A stretch of DNA of 38,272 bases, from assembly GCA_017608025.1 (NCBI GenBank), contig JAFCGM010000004.1, positions 154,744 to 193,015 of the forward strand, given 5' to 3'. Origin of the DNA: Candidatus Pacearchaeota archaeon. Its GTDB lineage: Archaea; Nanobdellota; Nanobdellia; UBA10117; JABICX01. The notes below the pieces were generated by a model. It was given only the letters and a program-made list of their open reading frames with translations, made no database searches and had not been told where the DNA came from. The position numbers were made by a program, and so were the translations under genes. This document shows positions 1 to 22,232 of the stretch, one piece after another (position 1 is the first letter of the stretch; the number at the start of each line of letters is the position of its first letter).

Positions 1-283
1 TAATAAATATATTTATCATAAAAAATATAATTACTGAAAAGAAACAAAAACATCTTAATTAAAACCCTCTATCCCCTTTATTTCCATTCCAATATATATA
101 AATAAAAAAATATTTAATAAATAATTATATTATTTACAATATAGTAAATAATTAAAGAAAACAAAAAACAAATTACTCAAATCAAATAAAAAAATAATTA
201 ATTTAAAACAAAAACAAAATCATTTTTCTTAAAACAAAACAGTTTCCATAAGAAACTATACTCTCAGAGGTAAAAAAAATATA
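1..283. other. AT-rich intergenic region without a gene
   Basis: This stretch is almost entirely A and T, with no credible reading frame and no RNA gene that I can recognise. The only structure is a short hairpin near its right edge, described separately as a terminator for the minus-strand gene that follows. Whatever gene lies to the left is outside the window. Confidence 0.6.
241..257 (-). terminator. Terminator-like hairpin after the small regulator gene
   Basis: AGTTTC (241-246) and GAAACT (252-257) form a perfect 6-bp stem with a 5-nt loop. On the minus strand it is followed by the T-rich run GTTTTGTTTT. It lies about 27 bp past the stop codon of the minus-strand gene at 284-622, as expected for a transcription end. 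Confidence 0.4.
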
Positions 284-622
284 TTATTCTTTTTTATTTC
301 TGCTTCTCAGTTCACATATTTTATTATAAACATCTCTTGAGCCTTTCGGATTAGCTTCTTTTCCTAAGGAAAAAATAATTCTCTGAACATTATCACCCCA
401 ACTATAATCTCCTCTTGCTTGCTGAATTTCCCTTATTTTAAACACACCAAGTTCAACTCCTTTATTTAAATGATAATAAATAGACCGTATGCTTACTTTT
501 TTATTAAAAATTTTCAAGTATTTTTTATACAAATCATAGCCATAACTCTCTTTTAAAAAAAATAGCAACTCAATCAAATTCTTTCTTATTTCACTATTTG
601 GCTTTCTTCCTAATTTACTCAT
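284..622 (-). CDS. Small winged-helix-like putative transcriptional regulator
   Basis: A 112-residue basic protein. Residues about 14-63 read as a helix-turn-helix unit: a helix ending in YGYDLYKKY, then the segment VSIRSIYYHLNKGVELGVFKI. That pattern resembles PadR/ArsR-type winged helices, in which a recognition helix is followed by a hydrophobic wing. No ligand-binding domain is visible, and the Lys/Arg-rich ends would suit DNA binding. It is divergent from the PolD gene with about 113 bp between the starts, so it could act on that shared region, but this is inference. A TATA-like stretch lies at about 666-677. The exact family is uncertain. Confidence 0.5.
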   Translation of the reverse strand: MSKLGRKPNSEIRKNLIELLFFLKESYGYDLYKKYLKIFNKKVSIRSIYYHLNKGVELGVFKIREIQQARGDYSWGDNVQRIIFSLGKEANPKGSRDVYNKICELRSRNKKE

Positions 623-735: not shown

Positions 736-3700
736 ATGTCTAAAAAAATCATAGCCCCTCAATCAATTTTTAAGTATTTTGATATTCTAAAAAATGAAAC
801 AAATAAGCAATATATTTTAGCTGGTGAAGCAAAGAAAAAAGGCTTTGACCCTGAAAAAGAAGTTGGAATAATTCTTGCAGACTCTGTTTCAAAAAGAGTT
901 GAAGGTTTAATCTCTGCAGAAGCCCCACAAATAATAAATTCTGGTGTTGCTGAAAGAATAGATTCTCTTGAAAAAAAATACCCTTCTGGTGACTGGAGAA
1001 TTGGAATGATTATTGCAGCAGAAGTTGCCCAGCAAAAATTCTGCAAATTCAAAGACCTTGAAGAAGCAGTTTCCATTGGAATTAGAACAGGTCTTGCATA
1101 CACTACAAACGGAGTTGTTTCAGCACCTCTTGAAGGAATAGCTGACATAAAGCTTAGGCTAAGAAAAGACAATAAAAAATATATATCTCTTTTTTTTGCA
1201 GGTCCAATTCGTGGAGCAGGCGCAACCCAGCAAATAGTTTCTTTAGTTATTTCAGATTATGTAAGAGTTAAGATGAATATAGATAAGTATGATCCAGACG
1301 AAGATGAAATTAACAGGTATTATACAGAAGTAATTGATTACTATGAGCGGGTTGAAAGAAAGCAATATAAGCCAACTTTTGAAGAAATAAAAATGATTGT
1401 AAGCTCAATCCCAATTGAAATTAACGGCGACCCATCTTCAAAATTAGAAGTTTCAAACTACAAAAATCTTCCAAGAATTGACACTAACAAAATTCGGGGA
1501 GGAATGGCTCTCGTTCTTACAGATGGAGTTATAAAGCTTCCAAAAGTCTGGCGCCAATTGAAAAAATGGCAAGAGGATTTCAATATAGATTGGAGTTGGT
1601 TGCCAAAATATTTTGAATTAAAAACAAAAATACACGCAGGAAGCAAAACGCAGACAAAACAGGAAAACACAAACCAAAAAATAGCTCCAAATTATTATTA
1701 TATATCTGAAATTGTTGCTGGACGTCCTGTTTTAGGATACCCTCTTAAAAAAGGAGGATTTAGATTAAGATATGGCCGCTCAAGAATGACTGGCGATGGC
1801 TCCTGGGCAATTTCACCAATAACTATGGCAGTTCTTTTAGATTATATTGCTATTGGAACTCAATTAAGAGTTGAACGTCCAGGAAAGTCAACAGCTTTAA
1901 CTGCTTGCGATGAAATTGAAGGCCCCATTTTAAAGCTCAAAGATGGTTCAGTTGTTAAGCCTGCAACAGAAAAGGAAGCAAGAAAACTTGCCCCAAAAAT
2001 AGAAAAAATACTTTTTTTAGGAGATATTCTTATAAGCCATGGAGAATTCAGCGAGAATGGTCATGTTCTTGTTCCAGCAGGTTATTGTGAAGAATGGTGG
2101 GTAATGGAGCTTGAAGATGCACTCAAAAACAGCACTCACAAATTTGACAAAGAGCTTATTGAAAAAATAAAAGCAAATCCAATTAAAACCAAGATTACTG
2201 CAGTTCAAGCACTGGAATTCTCAAAAAAATTAAAAGTATTTCTTCATCCAAAATATACACATTATTGGAAAGAGGTTTCGTATGAGAATTATTTAAAAAT
2301 ATTTAATTGGTTTAATAAAAAAGATTTTGAAAATACATCTGAAATAAAAGAAATTTTAGAAGAAATTGGATGCACCCATAAAATACAAGAAAATAAAATA
2401 ATTTTAGAGCCTGAAACAAGAGAGATTTTTCAAACTCTTCTTTCAAAAAAAGGACAAGGAGAAAATGCTCTTGAAGCAATAAACTCTACATCTGAAGTTA
2501 AAATTCGCGATAAGTCAGGAACATATATTGGAGTTAGAATGGGCAGACCAGAAAAAGCAAAGCTTAGAGCTCTAAAAGGCACTCCAAATGTTTTGTTTCC
2601 TGTTGGAAGCGAAGGTGGTAGACTCAGAAGTATAACAGAAGCTCTTTCAAAAAAGCAGATTACTTCAGTTTTCCCAAACTTTCTTTGTCCAAAATGCAAT
2701 GAAAAAACAATATATCCGTTGTGCGAAAATTGCAATGTAGAAACAAAAAAACTAATGAGAAAGTCTTTGAGAAAAGACGAAGAGATATTTTATTCAGAAC
2801 AAAAGATAGATATTGAAAAGTTTTTCAAAAACTCGCGAAAAAGAATTCATTTAGAACATGTCCCAGATTTAATAAAAGGCGTTAGGGGAACTTCAAACAA
2901 GAACCATTTCCCCGAATATTTAGGCAAAGGACTTTTGCGAGCAAAACACAAAATTCCTGTAAACAAAGACGGAACAACTCGATTTGACTTGACAGAATTG
3001 GGAATAACGCATTTCAAGCCAAAAGAAATCGGATTAACACCAGAAAAAGTAAGGGAGCTTGGATATGAAAAAGACATTCATGGAAATATAATAACTTCAG
3101 ATGAACAATTAATTGAAATATTTCCACAAGACATAATCTTGCCAAAAACCATGAATAAAACAGAAGATTTTGTTGACACCGGATTTTTCAGAGTAGCTAA
3201 TTTTATTGACGATGAATTGAAATATATATATAAAACAGAACCATATTATAATTTAAAAAAACCAGAAGATCTTATTGGGCATCTTGTTATTGGATTATCT
3301 CCGCATACTTCAGCAGGAATTATTGGAAGAATACTTGGGTTTTCTTCAAAACATGCGTGTTTCGCACACCCATATTGGCACGATGCTCAAAGAAGAGATC
3401 TTGATGGCGAGGAAACTTCAATCATTCTTTTAATGGATGCTTTTCTAAATTTCTCACGCCAATATTTGCCAGATCGCAGAGGTTCACGTTCAATGGATGC
3501 CCCGCTAGTACTTTCAATTGTTCTTAATCCTGAAGAAATTGATGATGAAGTTTATGACCTTGATACTTGCTGGAAATACAGTCGAGATTTTTATGAAGCT
3601 GCACTTAACTACAAGCCAACTTCAGAAGTTGAAGTAGAGCAGATAAGAGATAGAATTGGAAAAGAGCAGCAATATGTTGGAATGGGATTTACTCATAATG

Positions 3701-4152
3701 TTTCAAGCATAGATATAGGAGTAAGAAATTCAGCATACAAAGAGATACCAACAATGGTTGAAAAATTAGCAGGCCAAATGCATCTTGCAAAAATAATAAA
3801 AGCAGTTGATTTGGCAGCAGTTTCAAAATTAGTTATTGAAAAGCACTTTATTCGCGACATAAAAGGAAATCTACGAAAATTTACTTACCAAAAATACCGT
3901 TGTACTAACTGCAATACAGTTTATCGAAGGATTCCTTTGTCTGGAAAATGCGAAAGATGCCCAGTTAAAGGAAATTTGGTTTATACTATTGCTGAAGGAA
4001 CCGTTAAGAAATATTTAGAAGCAACTCTAAAATTAATTGAAATTGAAGGAATCTCACCATATTTAAAGCAAACAATTTCTATTTTAAAAGCAAGAATAGA
4101 AAGCATTTTTGGCAGAGAAAAGACAAAGCAAACATCTTTGTCAGGATTTTAA
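736..4152 (+). CDS. polC: DNA polymerase II (PolD) large catalytic subunit DP2
   Basis: DP2 is the catalytic subunit of archaeal PolD, a replicative polymerase with a two-barrel fold related to RNA polymerase. The 1138 residues match the usual intein-free length, and no intein is present. The active-site region reads HDAQRRDLDGEE (residues 882-893), which aligns with the HDAKRRNCDGDED core known from Pyrococcus. D890 matches the first catalytic Asp, but the second position is Glu (E892). Zinc-binding pairs occur near residue 654 (CPKC...CENC) and near 1056 (CTNC...CERC). The last seven residues, QTSLSGF, fit the QxxLxxF pattern of a PCNA-interacting motif, as known at the DP2 C-terminus. The small subunit DP1 is not in this window. 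The Cas4-like nuclease follows 48 bp downstream on the same strand. Confidence 0.96.
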   Translation: MSKKIIAPQSIFKYFDILKNETNKQYILAGEAKKKGFDPEKEVGIILADSVSKRVEGLISAEAPQIINSGVAERIDSLEKKYPSGDWRIGMIIAAEVAQQKFCKFKDLEEAVSIGIRTGLAYTTNGVVSAPLEGIADIKLRLRKDNKKYISLFFAGPIRGAGATQQIVSLVISDYVRVKMNIDKYDPDEDEINRYYTEVIDYYERVERKQYKPTFEEIKMIVSSIPIEINGDPSSKLEVSNYKNLPRIDTNKIRGGMALVLTDGVIKLPKVWRQLKKWQEDFNIDWSWLPKYFELKTKIHAGSKTQTKQENTNQKIAPNYYYISEIVAGRPVLGYPLKKGGFRLRYGRSRMTGDGSWAISPITMAVLLDYIAIGTQLRVERPGKSTALTACDEIEGPILKLKDGSVVKPATEKEARKLAPKIEKILFLGDILISHGEFSENGHVLVPAGYCEEWWVMELEDALKNSTHKFDKELIEKIKANPIKTKITAVQALEFSKKLKVFLHPKYTHYWKEVSYENYLKIFNWFNKKDFENTSEIKEILEEIGCTHKIQENKIILEPETREIFQTLLSKKGQGENALEAINSTSEVKIRDKSGTYIGVRMGRPEKAKLRALKGTPNVLFPVGSEGGRLRSITEALSKKQITSVFPNFLCPKCNEKTIYPLCENCNVETKKLMRKSLRKDEEIFYSEQKIDIEKFFKNSRKRIHLEHVPDLIKGVRGTSNKNHFPEYLGKGLLRAKHKIPVNKDGTTRFDLTELGITHFKPKEIGLTPEKVRELGYEKDIHGNIITSDEQLIEIFPQDIILPKTMNKTEDFVDTGFFRVANFIDDELKYIYKTEPYYNLKKPEDLIGHLVIGLSPHTSAGIIGRILGFSSKHACFAHPYWHDAQRRDLDGEETSIILLMDAFLNFSRQYLPDRRGSRSMDAPLVLSIVLNPEEIDDEVYDLDTCWKYSRDFYEAALNYKPTSEVEVEQIRDRIGKEQQYVGMGFTHNVSSIDIGVRNSAYKEIPTMVEKLAGQMHLAKIIKAVDLAAVSKLVIEKHFIRDIKGNLRKFTYQKYRCTNCNTVYRRIPLSGKCERCPVKGNLVYTIAEGTVKKYLEATLKLIEIEGISPYLKQTISILKARIESIFGREKTKQTSLSGF

Positions 4153-4200: not shown

Positions 4201-4911
4201 ATGAGAATAAAATGCCCTGAAAATGGAGAAGTAACACCAGAAGAATGTATAAAATGTGGAAAGTGCTTCCCAGAACCAATTTTAAAATCTCTTCTTGCTG
4301 GGAGAGATTATAAACGAACGCACAGAAAACGACCTAGATTCGGAGTTACTTATTTAATAAGCAATTGCTTGAGGAAAAGCTATTATCAGTTAACAGAAGA
4401 AGTGCCAATAGAACTTGAAAAGCTTTGGATTTTTTCAAGAGGTCACGCAATACACAATTTTTTTCAAAAAGATTTGCCAAAAGAAAGCATTGAGATTTTT
4501 GTTAAAAAGAATTATTCTGTATTTGATGTTATTGGTTATGTTGATGCAATATATAATAATGTTCTTTATGAATTTAAGACAATAAATACAGTACCGCAAA
4601 TACCGCAGGACGCACACATACTTCAAGCGCAAGCATATTTTTCTCTGCTTCCAGAAGAAAAAAAAGAGAAAATAAAAAAAATAAAAATAATTTATTTTTC
4701 TTTATCAAGCATACGTGTTTTTGATGTACCTAAGCGAGACATTTCTCCGCTTTTAGAAGCAAAAGGAACAATTCTTGCACAAGCACTCAAATTAGGAAAA
4801 CCACCAAGAAAGCAAAAAAATTATTTGTGTGATTATTGCGAATTTAAGGAGTTGTGTATCGGCGAAAAAGAGCCTTCTTTTGACCCCTCAAAAATAATAT
4901 ATGAAGATTAA
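4201..4911 (+). CDS. Cas4/Dna2-like PD-(D/E)XK nuclease with Fe-S cluster cysteines
   Basis: A 236-residue RecB-family nuclease. The catalytic set is visible as H82 (GHAIHNF), D115 (IGYVDAI), E124 and K126 (YEFKT), and the QxxxY-like motif around 142-146 (QAQAY). C56 with C210, C213 and C219 reproduces the one-plus-three cysteine layout that holds a 4Fe-4S cluster in Cas4, AddB and Dna2. An additional N-terminal cluster (C5, C16, C19, C22) looks like a small zinc or Fe-S knuckle. Family members cut single-stranded or flapped DNA ends. No CRISPR array or other cas gene is present. Position between PolD DP2 and a candidate origin suggests a housekeeping role in replication or repair, perhaps Dna2-like flap processing; that is inference. 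Confidence 0.8.
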   Translation: MRIKCPENGEVTPEECIKCGKCFPEPILKSLLAGRDYKRTHRKRPRFGVTYLISNCLRKSYYQLTEEVPIELEKLWIFSRGHAIHNFFQKDLPKESIEIFVKKNYSVFDVIGYVDAIYNNVLYEFKTINTVPQIPQDAHILQAQAYFSLLPEEKKEKIKKIKIIYFSLSSIRVFDVPKRDISPLLEAKGTILAQALKLGKPPRKQKNYLCDYCEFKELCIGEKEPSFDPSKIIYED

Positions 4912-5060
4912 TCAGAAACAATCGGAAATTTTTTTCCAATAAAAAACACTTTACATAAAAGCAATCAGAAACAATCGGAAATTTTTTTCCAATCTTTTCC
5001 AATCGGAAATTAAAAGTAGCTATTGGAAAATTAACATACTTAATTACATTTTTATATTCT

Positions 5061-5076
5061 ATCGGAAATAAAGGGG
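5061..5076 (+). promoter_or_regulatory. Origin-recognition-box-like element, copy 1
   Basis: ATCGGAAATAAAGGGG resembles the right half of archaeal origin recognition boxes, which combine a TGGAAAC core with a downstream G-string (GGAAACAAAGGGG type). Here GGAAA, one variable base, then AAAGGGG are conserved. The resemblance is from memory of the consensus, not from a scan. Confidence 0.4.
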
Positions 5077-5169
5077 TCTTTCTATCGGAAATTTTTTTCC
5101 AATCTTTTCCAATAGATTTTCCAATAAAAAAACAATTTTTAGCATACTAAAAGCAAATTACTTATTTCT

Positions 5170-5185
5170 ATCGGAAATAAAGGGG
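5170..5185 (+). promoter_or_regulatory. Origin-recognition-box-like element, copy 2
   Basis: The sequence is identical to the copy at 5061-5076 and lies in the same orientation 109 bp downstream, inside a 35-bp perfect direct repeat. These two are the only boxes in the array that carry the G-string. Confidence 0.4.
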
Positions 5186-5337
5186 TCTTTCTATCGGAAA
5201 TCGGAATTTCCAATTTCCGATTATTTTTTCCAATAGCGTACTAGTAAACCTTTTTTAAATTGGAAACAATCGGAAAAATCGGAAATGTATGGAAAAAGAG
5301 AATAATGCTTTTATTGTAGAAATCTTTTTTTGTTTTT

Positions 5338-5994
5338 ATGAAGCCAATATCTAAAGAAATTGAATTTATTAAAGACATTCTTGATGAGCACAAAGCAGAC
5401 ATAGAATCAATAAAGCGAAAGCTACATTATTTGACAAACAAGTCTGAAGAAATCAATGAAAAAATAGATAACCAAAAAAAACAAGCAACAGAGCAAACAA
5501 AAACTCTTGAAGACAACAGTAAAAATGAAAAACTGGCAACAGAAGTTGATTCTTTGCGAAACCAGTTAACGTTAATCTCAACAAGCATATCTGAGCTTAA
5601 GCAAGCAATTGGAAACAATCGGAATTTCCAATTTCCCTTACCAACTTCCAACCTGCAAAATCAAAACCCAAATCTTCAGTCACCTCAACAACCTCAACAA
5701 CAACCCAAACACGATTTTGTAATGGACCTTGAAAGACTTCAGCTTTTATTTATATTAAAGCAGAGCAAAGCAACAACACCAGCATTTGCAGTTTCAGCAC
5801 GCCAGATTAAGGAAGCATTTTCAATAGACAAAACAACTCGAACACTGAGAAACAAATTAGCAACACTCGTTAGAGAAGGTTATGTAATAAAAATATCTAA
5901 AAAGCCAGCATTATATTTCTTAAGCCAGAACGGCCTTATAGTAATAAACAAGCAAGAAAAATCTGTATTTTCCTTTGTTCCACAAGAATATTAA
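5338..5994 (+). CDS. Coiled-coil protein with C-terminal winged-helix domain, unknown function
   Basis: Residues 1-92 are charged and heptad-rich, predicting a coiled coil for dimerisation. Residues about 93-125 are an Asn/Gln/Pro-rich linker. Residues about 126-215 look like a winged helix: a helix with LQLLFILKQ, a helix-turn-helix around ARQIKEAFSIDKTTRTLRNK, then the hydrophobic wing EGYVIKISKKPALYFLSQNG. I do not recognise a named family. It sits directly downstream of the ATYGGAAA array. Its own linker-coding DNA (5608-5636) carries one full forward box, one near-match and one full reverse box, so the protein is a natural candidate to bind the boxes, either as autoregulator or as an initiator-like factor. 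This binding role is inference. Confidence 0.65.
   Translation: MKPISKEIEFIKDILDEHKADIESIKRKLHYLTNKSEEINEKIDNQKKQATEQTKTLEDNSKNEKLATEVDSLRNQLTLISTSISELKQAIGNNRNFQFPLPTSNLQNQNPNLQSPQQPQQQPKHDFVMDLERLQLLFILKQSKATTPAFAVSARQIKEAFSIDKTTRTLRNKLATLVREGYVIKISKKPALYFLSQNGLIVINKQEKSVFSFVPQEY
5608..5636. repeat. Intragenic cluster of ATYGGAAA boxes
   Basis: ATTGGAAA (5608-5615), the near-match ATCGGAAT (5618-5625) and TTTCCAAT (5625-5632) lie inside the winged-helix gene. The cluster joins sequence found at 5259-5274 and at 5200-5218 of the upstream array, so it belongs to the same repeat family rather than being a chance match. It encodes residues I-G-N-N-R-N-F-Q-F-P of the linker. Confidence 0.75.
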
Positions 5995-20198: not shown

Positions 20199-20834
20199 AT
20201 GAGAACATCAGTTCTTACTGAAAAGATAAACAGACAGGATTTATTTCAAAAAGTATTTGCTGGGAGATATTCAGCATATCCTTATATTGGAAATTCTCGT
20301 TTTGAAACAAGAGTTTATTTTCTTGCAAGAGATGAAACAAAAGAGCTTGAAAGAGACAAGCTATTGGATTCTGCAAAAATATTAACAATACACTGCGATG
20401 ATTTATCAAAATACAGTATTCAAACAAGTAATAAAAAAATTTATCAATTTAATGCTCGCGGAGAAAAGTTTTTCATTGTTTATCCTTTTAATTATACTAC
20501 AAAAATTCTTCCAGAATTAAAAAAATATGAACACATACTTGCAAAATCAAAAAACACTATTGAAGGAACATTCTACATCCAATATATACCTAAGAATACA
20601 AAAACTCATAAAATGAAAAGCCTGTCTAAAAAAATAACTTTTTTTAATTTAGAAGGAACATGTTTATTAGATGATTATTCTTCAGAAGATATAAAATATC
20701 TTGATAAAGGAATATTAAGTATCAATCACAATAACTTCTTTTCAATTGAAACTCTTGATGTACCTGTTATAAATGTTCTTTTGAAAAAAGAAATGAGAGA
20801 GAATGGTTTATCATTTGACATGCAATATAAATAA
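20199..20834 (+). CDS. Protein of unknown function between top6A and orc1
   Basis: A 211-residue protein I do not recognise. It has no signal peptide or membrane segment and is rich in Lys, Tyr, Phe and Asn. The hydrophobic pattern (KILTIHCDDLSKYSI, KFFIVYPFNYTTKILPELKKY, GTFYIQYIPKN) alternates strands and helices, suggesting a soluble alpha/beta fold. Its codon use is more AT-rich than the flanking top6 and orc1 genes (many ATA, AAA and TTA codons), which may mean relaxed selection or later arrival. The position between two replication genes invites a link to DNA metabolism, but nothing in the sequence shows one. Confidence 0.65.
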   Translation: MRTSVLTEKINRQDLFQKVFAGRYSAYPYIGNSRFETRVYFLARDETKELERDKLLDSAKILTIHCDDLSKYSIQTSNKKIYQFNARGEKFFIVYPFNYTTKILPELKKYEHILAKSKNTIEGTFYIQYIPKNTKTHKMKSLSKKITFFNLEGTCLLDDYSSEDIKYLDKGILSINHNNFFSIETLDVPVINVLLKKEMRENGLSFDMQYK

Positions 20835-20885: not shown

Positions 20886-21998
20886 ATGACCATGAACGAG
20901 TTTCTTTCAAGAGAGGAGAGCATCTTTTCAAATCCAGATGCTCTTGATCCAGATTTTGTTCCCAAAGTTCTCCCACATCGTGAAGATGAGCAAAAGGAAA
21001 TAATTTACGCAATAAAGCCCCTCATTAAGTCAAGAAGCGGAGGCCAACTCCTCATAAAAGGCCAGTCTGGCGTAGGAAAGACTGTTTCTGTTAAGAAGGT
21101 TCTTCGGGAATTAGAAGAGACAGAAGAGGCAGATGATATAACAATTGCATTTGTAAACTGCTGGACAACAAACACATCATATAAGATTGCAGTCTCAATT
21201 GCAAACTCTCTTGGATTTCGATTTACTCAAAACCTAAACACTTCTGAAATTTTTGACAAGATAAAGGAAATTGTTTTGCAGAGGCAGGGAATTGTTGTAG
21301 TTCTTGATGAAGTTGACAAGGCAGACGATTATGACTTCCTTTACTACATTCTCGAAGTTATTCCAAAAAAATCACTGATAATGATAACAAATGAAATGCA
21401 GTGGGGAAGCAACCTTGACTTGAGAATTAGAAGCAGGCTCATGCCTTCTGTGGTTGAATTCAAAACATATTCAAAACTTGAAATACGTTCAATCCTTGCT
21501 CAGAGAGTGAAATATGCTTTTTATGAAAACACATGGTCAGAAGATGCTTTTGAAAATATTGTTGATATGGCTGCAAAATACCATGATGTTCGTGTTGGAA
21601 TAAAGCTGCTTAAATCTGCTGGAGAAATTGCAGAAAGAGACTCTTCAAAAAAGGTTATGAAAAAGCACGCAGAAGACGCCATTTCAAAGACAGAGAATTT
21701 CAAAATAAAGTCATCAGATTCTTTTACAGAGGAAGAAAAGCTTATTTTAAATGTTTGCAAGGAATGTTCTGGCCAGAGAATAGGAAAGCTTTATGATTAT
21801 TATCTTTCAGTTGGCGGTGGAAAGTCAGAAAAAACCCTTAAGAGAAAGCTTGAATCTCTCGCCAAAAAGGGCGTAATAGACCTTGAACTTTCTGGAGAAG
21901 GCCTCCGCGGGAAGTCATCAATAATAAAATATAGGGGCCTAGAGGCTACGAAGCTATCTGATTTTGAAAAGAAAGAGAAAAAAGAAAAGCAAGATTAA
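20886..21998 (+). CDS. cdc6: Orc1/Cdc6 replication initiator
   Basis: Archaeal origin-recognition and helicase-loader protein. The AAA+ core has Walker A GQSGVGKT (residues 59-66) and Walker B VVVLDEVDKA (near 140), sensor 1 with MITNEM and an arginine-bearing sensor-2 region near RVKYAFYENTWS...DVRVGIKLLKSAGEIAERD. The C-terminus is a winged helix (FTEEEKLILNVCKEC...KTLKRKLESLAKKGVIDLEL), which binds origin boxes. The 370-residue length is usual. I use the ATG at 20886; another ATG lies two codons later. Its likely binding sites are the ORB-like boxes at about 5061 and 5170, some 16 kb away. Confidence 0.95.
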   Translation: MTMNEFLSREESIFSNPDALDPDFVPKVLPHREDEQKEIIYAIKPLIKSRSGGQLLIKGQSGVGKTVSVKKVLRELEETEEADDITIAFVNCWTTNTSYKIAVSIANSLGFRFTQNLNTSEIFDKIKEIVLQRQGIVVVLDEVDKADDYDFLYYILEVIPKKSLIMITNEMQWGSNLDLRIRSRLMPSVVEFKTYSKLEIRSILAQRVKYAFYENTWSEDAFENIVDMAAKYHDVRVGIKLLKSAGEIAERDSSKKVMKKHAEDAISKTENFKIKSSDSFTEEEKLILNVCKECSGQRIGKLYDYYLSVGGGKSEKTLKRKLESLAKKGVIDLELSGEGLRGKSSIIKYRGLEATKLSDFEKKEKKEKQD

Positions 21999-22119: not shown

Positions 22120-22232
22120 GACCCGGTAGCTTAGCCTGGTTAGAGCGCTGGTCTTATAAGATCCCTTCCACGAGGAAGATAACATGTATTTGGGAAAACC
22201 AGAGGTCTCGAGTTCAAATCTCGACCGGGTCA
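22120..22232 (+). tRNA. tRNA-Ile (TAT anticodon) with a 38-nt intron at 37/38
   Basis: Acceptor strands GACCCGG and CCGGGTC pair fully, with discriminator A. The anticodon stem CTGGT (22148-22152) pairs with ACCAG (22198-22202). The intron is 22159-22196. It is bounded by a clean bulge-helix-bulge: outer stem CTGGT/ACCAG, central 4-bp helix CTTA/TGGG (with two G-U pairs), bulges TAA and AAA, and a weak inner helix GAT/ATT. Splicing leaves the 7-nt loop CTTATAA, anticodon TAT at 22155-22157, reading AUA. There is no long variable arm, so leucine is excluded. It starts 3 bp after tRNA-Asn. Confidence 0.88.

Follow-up and report, generated by a model that had tools for sequence, protein, structure and literature searches.

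What is the role of a winged-helix gene that lies directly beside a dense array of short repeated boxes, within a few kilobases of a probable replication origin? The question is raised by a stretch of 38,272 nucleotides (the window) from the 700-kb, 34-contig genome of an archaeon that appears to be tiny and symbiont-like; its named relatives are MAGs labelled Woesearchaeota, Nanoarchaeota and Pacearchaeota. The order on the contig is cdc6-1, oriC1, a small protein, DP2, a Cas4-like nuclease, the array and the winged-helix (wHTH) gene (Table 1). From the sequence, array and gene are read as one module, composed of a cis site and its own predicted binding protein. The module is real and conserved, and the pair looks like a simple centromere-like chromosome-marking or origin-control system not described before.

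Table 1. Features of the window, with positions counted from its first nucleotide
Feature	Position	Strand	Basis or remark
Right half of apparent canonical oriC1	1..286		AT-rich; the other half and cdc6-1 are just left of the window (C28:153316-154743)
ORB of oriC1, TGGAATGGAAATAAAGGGGA, 4 mismatches	72..91	-	ORB motif match
Dyad TTTACAATATAGTAAA in AT-rich part of oriC1	133..148	+	Same place in G002 and G008
ORB-core-like TTTCCATAAGAAA, right edge of oriC1	243..255	+	Sequence match
Small conserved protein, no known family	284..622	-	Between oriC1 and DP2
DNA polymerase D large subunit DP2	736..4152	+	Family match
Cas4-like PD-(D/E)XK nuclease	4201..4911	+	Left neighbour of array
Array of 20 ATYGGAAA boxes, both strands	4921..5285		Spacing of GGAA cores mostly 10 and 20 bp
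ORB-like element TCTATCGGAAATAAAGGGGT in array, 3 mismatches to published common ORB	5058..5077	+	Motif match
Second ORB-like element, identical to first	5167..5186	+	Within a 36-bp exact repeat
Gene of coiled-coil and winged-helix protein, family A	5338..5994	+	218 aa, ATG start
Coiled-coil helix, residues 4-92	5347..5613	+	AlphaFold2 model
In-gene boxes	5608..5632		Linker between coiled coil and wHTH; position kept in five relatives
Winged helix, residues 131-211	5728..5970	+	AlphaFold2 model
Second orc1/cdc6 (cdc6-2)	20886..21998	+	Family match

A cdc6 gene, inverted ORBs and AT-rich DNA, which together characterize an Orc1/Cdc6 origin, were found at the left edge of the window and not at the array. 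Because of the inverted ORBs, the AT-rich DNA and a shared dyad (TTTACAATATWGTAAA, common to G002 and G008), the left-edge site reads as an apparent canonical archaeal oriC1, with cdc6-1 (C28:153316-154437) just left of the window. The small protein encoded next to it is 56-61% identical to counterparts in G002, G005, G008 and G012, and has a weaker match near cdc6-1 of G030. The Cas4-like nuclease carries N-terminal cysteines and is kept in 15 of 18 genomes of the order; its gene lies directly 3' of DP2 in most order genomes whose flanks were read. Farther to the right, a protein without family match is encoded at 20199-20834, between TopoVI A and cdc6-2, and a tRNA match of 113 nt at 22120-22232 probably bears an intron.

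The wHTH open reading frame is real and is kept open in relatives. An earlier note on this DNA had described its product as a coiled coil plus winged helix of no known family. The latter statement holds in Pfam, NCBIfam and PHROGs, which returned no curated family and only weak coiled-coil/wHTH noise. The architecture is also borne out by AlphaFold2 (17-sequence alignment), which gave a single long helix, a disordered linker at residues 98-121 and a winged helix (pLDDT about 97) at 131-211, where 126-215 had been proposed. Residues R168, R171 and K173, borne by the helix at 167-180, are nearly invariant in this protein family (family A) and in a distant sister family (family B) described below.

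The array contains 20 exact ATYGGAAA boxes versus 0.08 expected (p ~3e-41), and the whole window 30 versus 7.8 +/- 2.9. It is the sole dense YGGAAA cluster on the 193-kb contig, with 21 in 500 bp; the runner-up has eight and the mean is 1.4. The two full boxes and one near-match reported earlier within the gene at 5608-5636 were found: ATTGGAAA at 5608-5615 (+), the near-match ATCGGAAT at 5618-5625 and ATTGGAAA at 5625-5632 (-). Taken by itself, the pair of full boxes in this one gene is modest evidence (Poisson p = 0.008). Across the six family-A genes, each with a box-rich linker, 30 GGAA/TTCC occur in a total of 558 bp of linker versus 21 in 2336 bp of remaining gene (p = 3e-14). The spacing of the family-A cores is likewise ordered, with 27 GGAA pairs at exactly 10 or 20 bp versus 6.2 +/- 2.4 in a jitter null, a value reached in 0 of 5000 randomizations; this phasing comes mostly from the genome of the window (G000), G005 and G001. 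An iteron plasmid replicon would combine phased direct repeats with a Rep-type initiator; the phased boxes of family A are of mixed orientation, and no convincing Rep domain match was obtained. With an apparent Orc1/Cdc6-ORB origin alongside and ORBs in the array, no new stand-alone initiator need be invoked; oriC1 seems to own a cdc6.

Does the array follow the gene? Besides the genome of the window, family-A homologues were found in G001, G002, G005, G008 and G012. All six genomes have a spacer with GGAA boxes beside the Cas4-like gene together with boxes where the gene encodes the linker, whereas none of nine order relatives with the Cas4-like gene but without the wHTH gene has a box cluster or a close ORB match there, a clean count of seven given that G004 and G011 are covered just to the contig end. 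Absences in the fragmentary genomes G007, G010 and G014 carry no weight. The G008 spacer is poor in strict YGGAAA (four versus two expected). The co-occurrence of array and gene in relatives, a check proposed in the earlier note, thus came out positive. A single-protein search for related loci gave no match. L032 (G014) was dropped as a homologue (weak coiled-coil match, E 0.009, phage-type-looking genes, partly contaminated bin), and L006-L008, L010, L011 and L013-L017 were set aside as weak coiled-coil matches.

Profile searches led to family B, which occurs in other families of the same archaeal class and is homologous to family A (hhalign 97%, E 6e-11). The word locally enriched at its loci is CGGAACT/AGTTCCG, clustered at the gene's end or across 2-5 kb. 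Among 30 tRNA-deacylase loci, a cluster is present at seven of the eight with a family-B gene versus none of the 22 without, and GGAAC reaches 4.3-8.8 per kb at the seven cluster-bearing loci versus 0.3-1.9 at the 22 gene-less ones. The exception, G022, has a divergent homologue without a GGAAC cluster, and in G033 the cluster is displaced from the gene. Family-B boxes form an overlapping GTTCCGGAAC-type palindrome, unlike the 10/20-bp phasing of family A. The box differs by family, YGGAAA in A and CGGAACT in B, with the arginines and the lysine of the recognition helix kept. That the cluster follows the gene and that the box changes with the protein, with the recognition residues kept, is the main argument from which we infer that the protein binds the boxes. 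In the earlier suggestion of a dedicated protein beside its probable sites, the pairing has stood in both families, and binding stays a prediction.

The family-B neighbourhoods (G027:C9, G037:C102, G054:C4 and G042:C27; L135, L134, L116-L121 and L133) contain a MinD-type ATPase and a tRNA deacylase, and GGAAC boxes run through several of their coding genes. In 6/6 genomes with family B, a MinD/ParA-superfamily ATPase is encoded at a distance of 2-8 kb from its gene, a point in favour of the partition-like reading given below; the two of these ATPases that were scanned scored over the cut-off of TIGR01969. In several genomes, a secretion-type (pilus-type) ATPase lies between the two genes; a family search detected it in the G027 and G042 neighbourhoods. 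Because of this intervening gene, the MinD-type ATPase may not be a partition motor, and its gene may belong to a pilus-type secretion operon. Placement of family B at an origin found no support in the GC skew of G030, whose locus lies 160 kb from oriC1 and not at a skew minimum. On the 727-kb contig of that genome, the best ORB match (G030:C5:256609, 2 mismatches) is possibly a second origin; its distance is 20 kb to the family-B gene and 139 kb to oriC1.

The reading that we prefer, with a probability of roughly 45%, is that a protein specific for the boxes assembles a nucleoprotein patch next to oriC1, by which the origin would be marked or segregated without ParA. The N-terminal coiled coil probably brings two copies of the protein together, and the C-terminal winged helix probably reads the GGAA-core boxes via R168/R171/K173. 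The protein would coat the array, in which one or two helical turns separate the boxes, and this coating should repress the protein's own gene, given that boxes are found around its start and within it. A fixed patch of protein and DNA would result at 4-8 kb from oriC1. Most likely it tags the newly replicated origin so that this can be separated or condensed, in the way of a ParA-less centromere, and SMC may be its effector. An SMC hinge was found in 19/19 genomes tested. The module is near oriC1 in all five genomes whose DNA covers both, including G002 with its rearranged gene order. GC skew shifts its trend in this region but does not tell array and oriC1 apart, both in G002 (cumulative minimum at 24-28 kb, array at 26 kb, oriC1 at 34 kb) and in the genome of the window (curve flattening at about 155 kb, minimum at 168-172 kb).

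Which known systems does the pair resemble? The best PDB chain is TubR, by sequence profile (E 2.8e-4) and as the top Foldseek hit for both the full model and the domain; AspA ranks second or fourth in Foldseek. MarR/MepR folds score within about fourfold of TubR and are thus nearly as good, so the TubR/AspA likeness is a lead and not a classification; winged helices resemble each other, which counts against a partition reading based on TubR. A wHTH gene with an upstream repeat array, as in TubRZC, is matched here in architecture and fold only. In type III partition of Bacillus plasmids, tubC lies upstream of tubR and is built from repeats, either direct or inverted, through which tubRZ is also repressed (PMC7762940). 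The present locus shares with TubR-tubC a wHTH protein and a multi-repeat site upstream of its own gene, and differs in having no adjacent tubZ, a long N-terminal coiled coil and a chromosomal position beside oriC1, with ORBs. AspA of the archaeal plasmid pNOB8 is a wHTH protein that binds a centromere located upstream of the AspA gene (PMC5120986). This archaeal arrangement is similar; however, the AspA site is a 23-bp palindrome instead of an array, and no parB/parA follow here.

Partner genes argue against segregation in part, as family A has neither a ParA/SegA over cut-off nor an adjacent TubZ. A TubZ-type partner was ruled out: none is encoded beside the wHTH gene, and the two FtsZ-type genes per genome are unlinked to it, lying elsewhere in every genome tested. 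A ParA partner for family A was also ruled out, since ParA-type ATPases are below cut-off or absent (no PF13614 match over cut-off in the six family-A genomes). Streptococcus pneumoniae has ParB without ParA, and SMC loading falls when ParB is lost (PMC7022226). Its ParB-parS system is comparable in combining origin-proximal sites with a cognate protein (here a predicted one), ParA missing and SMC present, and unlike in that no ParB fold is found here and that one dense array takes the place of dispersed 16-bp parS sites. In SegAB of Sulfolobales, site clusters lie near the genes and the oriC1 region (PMC12284271), and the SegB motif core is AGAg/cTCT. The placement of the box clusters is alike, whereas the boxes here are GGAA-type and family-A genomes have no SegA-type ATPase over cut-off. 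Further points against the preferred reading are G022 without a cluster, the shifted cluster of G033, the few strict boxes of G008 and the G030 locus 160 kb away.

Initiation control, which we consider rather unlikely, is the strongest rival in our analysis because of the ORBs in the array, which point to initiation rather than segregation. The array would then be a satellite of oriC1 bound in competition by Orc1/Cdc6 and the wHTH protein, serving initiator titration or oriC1 licensing in the manner of H. hispanica oriC2D or E. coli datA, with the wHTH protein as an initiation regulator or co-initiator. Searching with the published common ORB of Ori-Finder 2 (PMC4164010) gave, for the whole window, two matches at <=3 mismatches where 0.06 are expected, and both fall in the array; all six family-A spacers have matches at looser cut-offs (4-5 mismatches in G002, 4 in G008). 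The box sequence itself is the ORB core, and oriC1 is close. Canonical ORBs with the G-string are concentrated in the arrays: of 13 GGAAA-N2-5-GGGG sites in 475 kb, eight lie in 5 kb of arrays, two in oriC1 and three elsewhere. There is precedent in Haloarcula hispanica oriC2D, where 11 ORBs in 722 bp downstream of cdc6E restrain oriC2 (PMC3936714); oriC2D, like the array, is an intergenic region close to an origin and dense in ORB-type elements. However, oriC2D is tied to cdc6E and the present array to the wHTH gene, and the G-string is absent from most of the array's 20 boxes. The array tracks the wHTH gene and not cdc6, being missing from the nine relatives with the same neighbours, and some family-B clusters have no ORBs nearby.

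Ordinary autoregulation is improbable; in this view the protein would be a MarR-like repressor, and the boxes ahead of and within its gene would be an exceptionally rich operator. Boxes do flank the gene start and lie within the gene, and MarR folds are among the nearest structures. A single palindromic operator of MarR type, however, is not what was found: 20 phased boxes over 365 bp exceed the need of an operator, and the family-B clusters, which reach 10-14 boxes per kb along 2-5 kb of DNA, neighbouring genes included (about 50 boxes across 4-5 kb in G027 and G054), have too many boxes for one. The link to oriC1 and a coiled coil of about 90 residues also speak against it.

An integrated plasmid or virus remnant, that is, an iteron origin and its initiator captured beside oriC1, would account for an iteron-like array next to a wHTH gene and has a precedent in the capture proposed for oriC3-whiP of Sulfolobus (PMC4010727), but is very improbable in view of the lack of a relative in viral contigs (one alignment tried), a vertical-looking distribution with the same Cas4-like neighbour in several genera, and no integrase or mobile gene noted beside the module in an unsystematic look. 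In WhiP-oriC3, a winged-helix gene likewise adjoins an origin (PMC4010727), and oriC3 has no ORB, unlike the present locus with its apparent Cdc6-ORB origin alongside.

What would the preferred reading mean for these archaea? In a more specific form, put forward tentatively and with some doubt, the module would be a motor-less chromosomal centromere-like system of DPANN-type archaea, made of a TubR/AspA-like wHTH protein and a co-evolving GGAA-box array; in one lineage it would lie beside oriC1, interleaved with ORBs, so that initiator and segregation protein would meet on the same DNA. Little is understood of segregation in archaea beyond the SegAB lineages, and the literature searched yielded no DPANN centromere. 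A conserved module of protein and array by oriC1, whose box specificity takes two forms according to the protein, is a concrete candidate for experimental work. If initiation control were true instead, the locus would be a non-haloarchaeal, ORB-rich regulatory satellite with its own dedicated protein.
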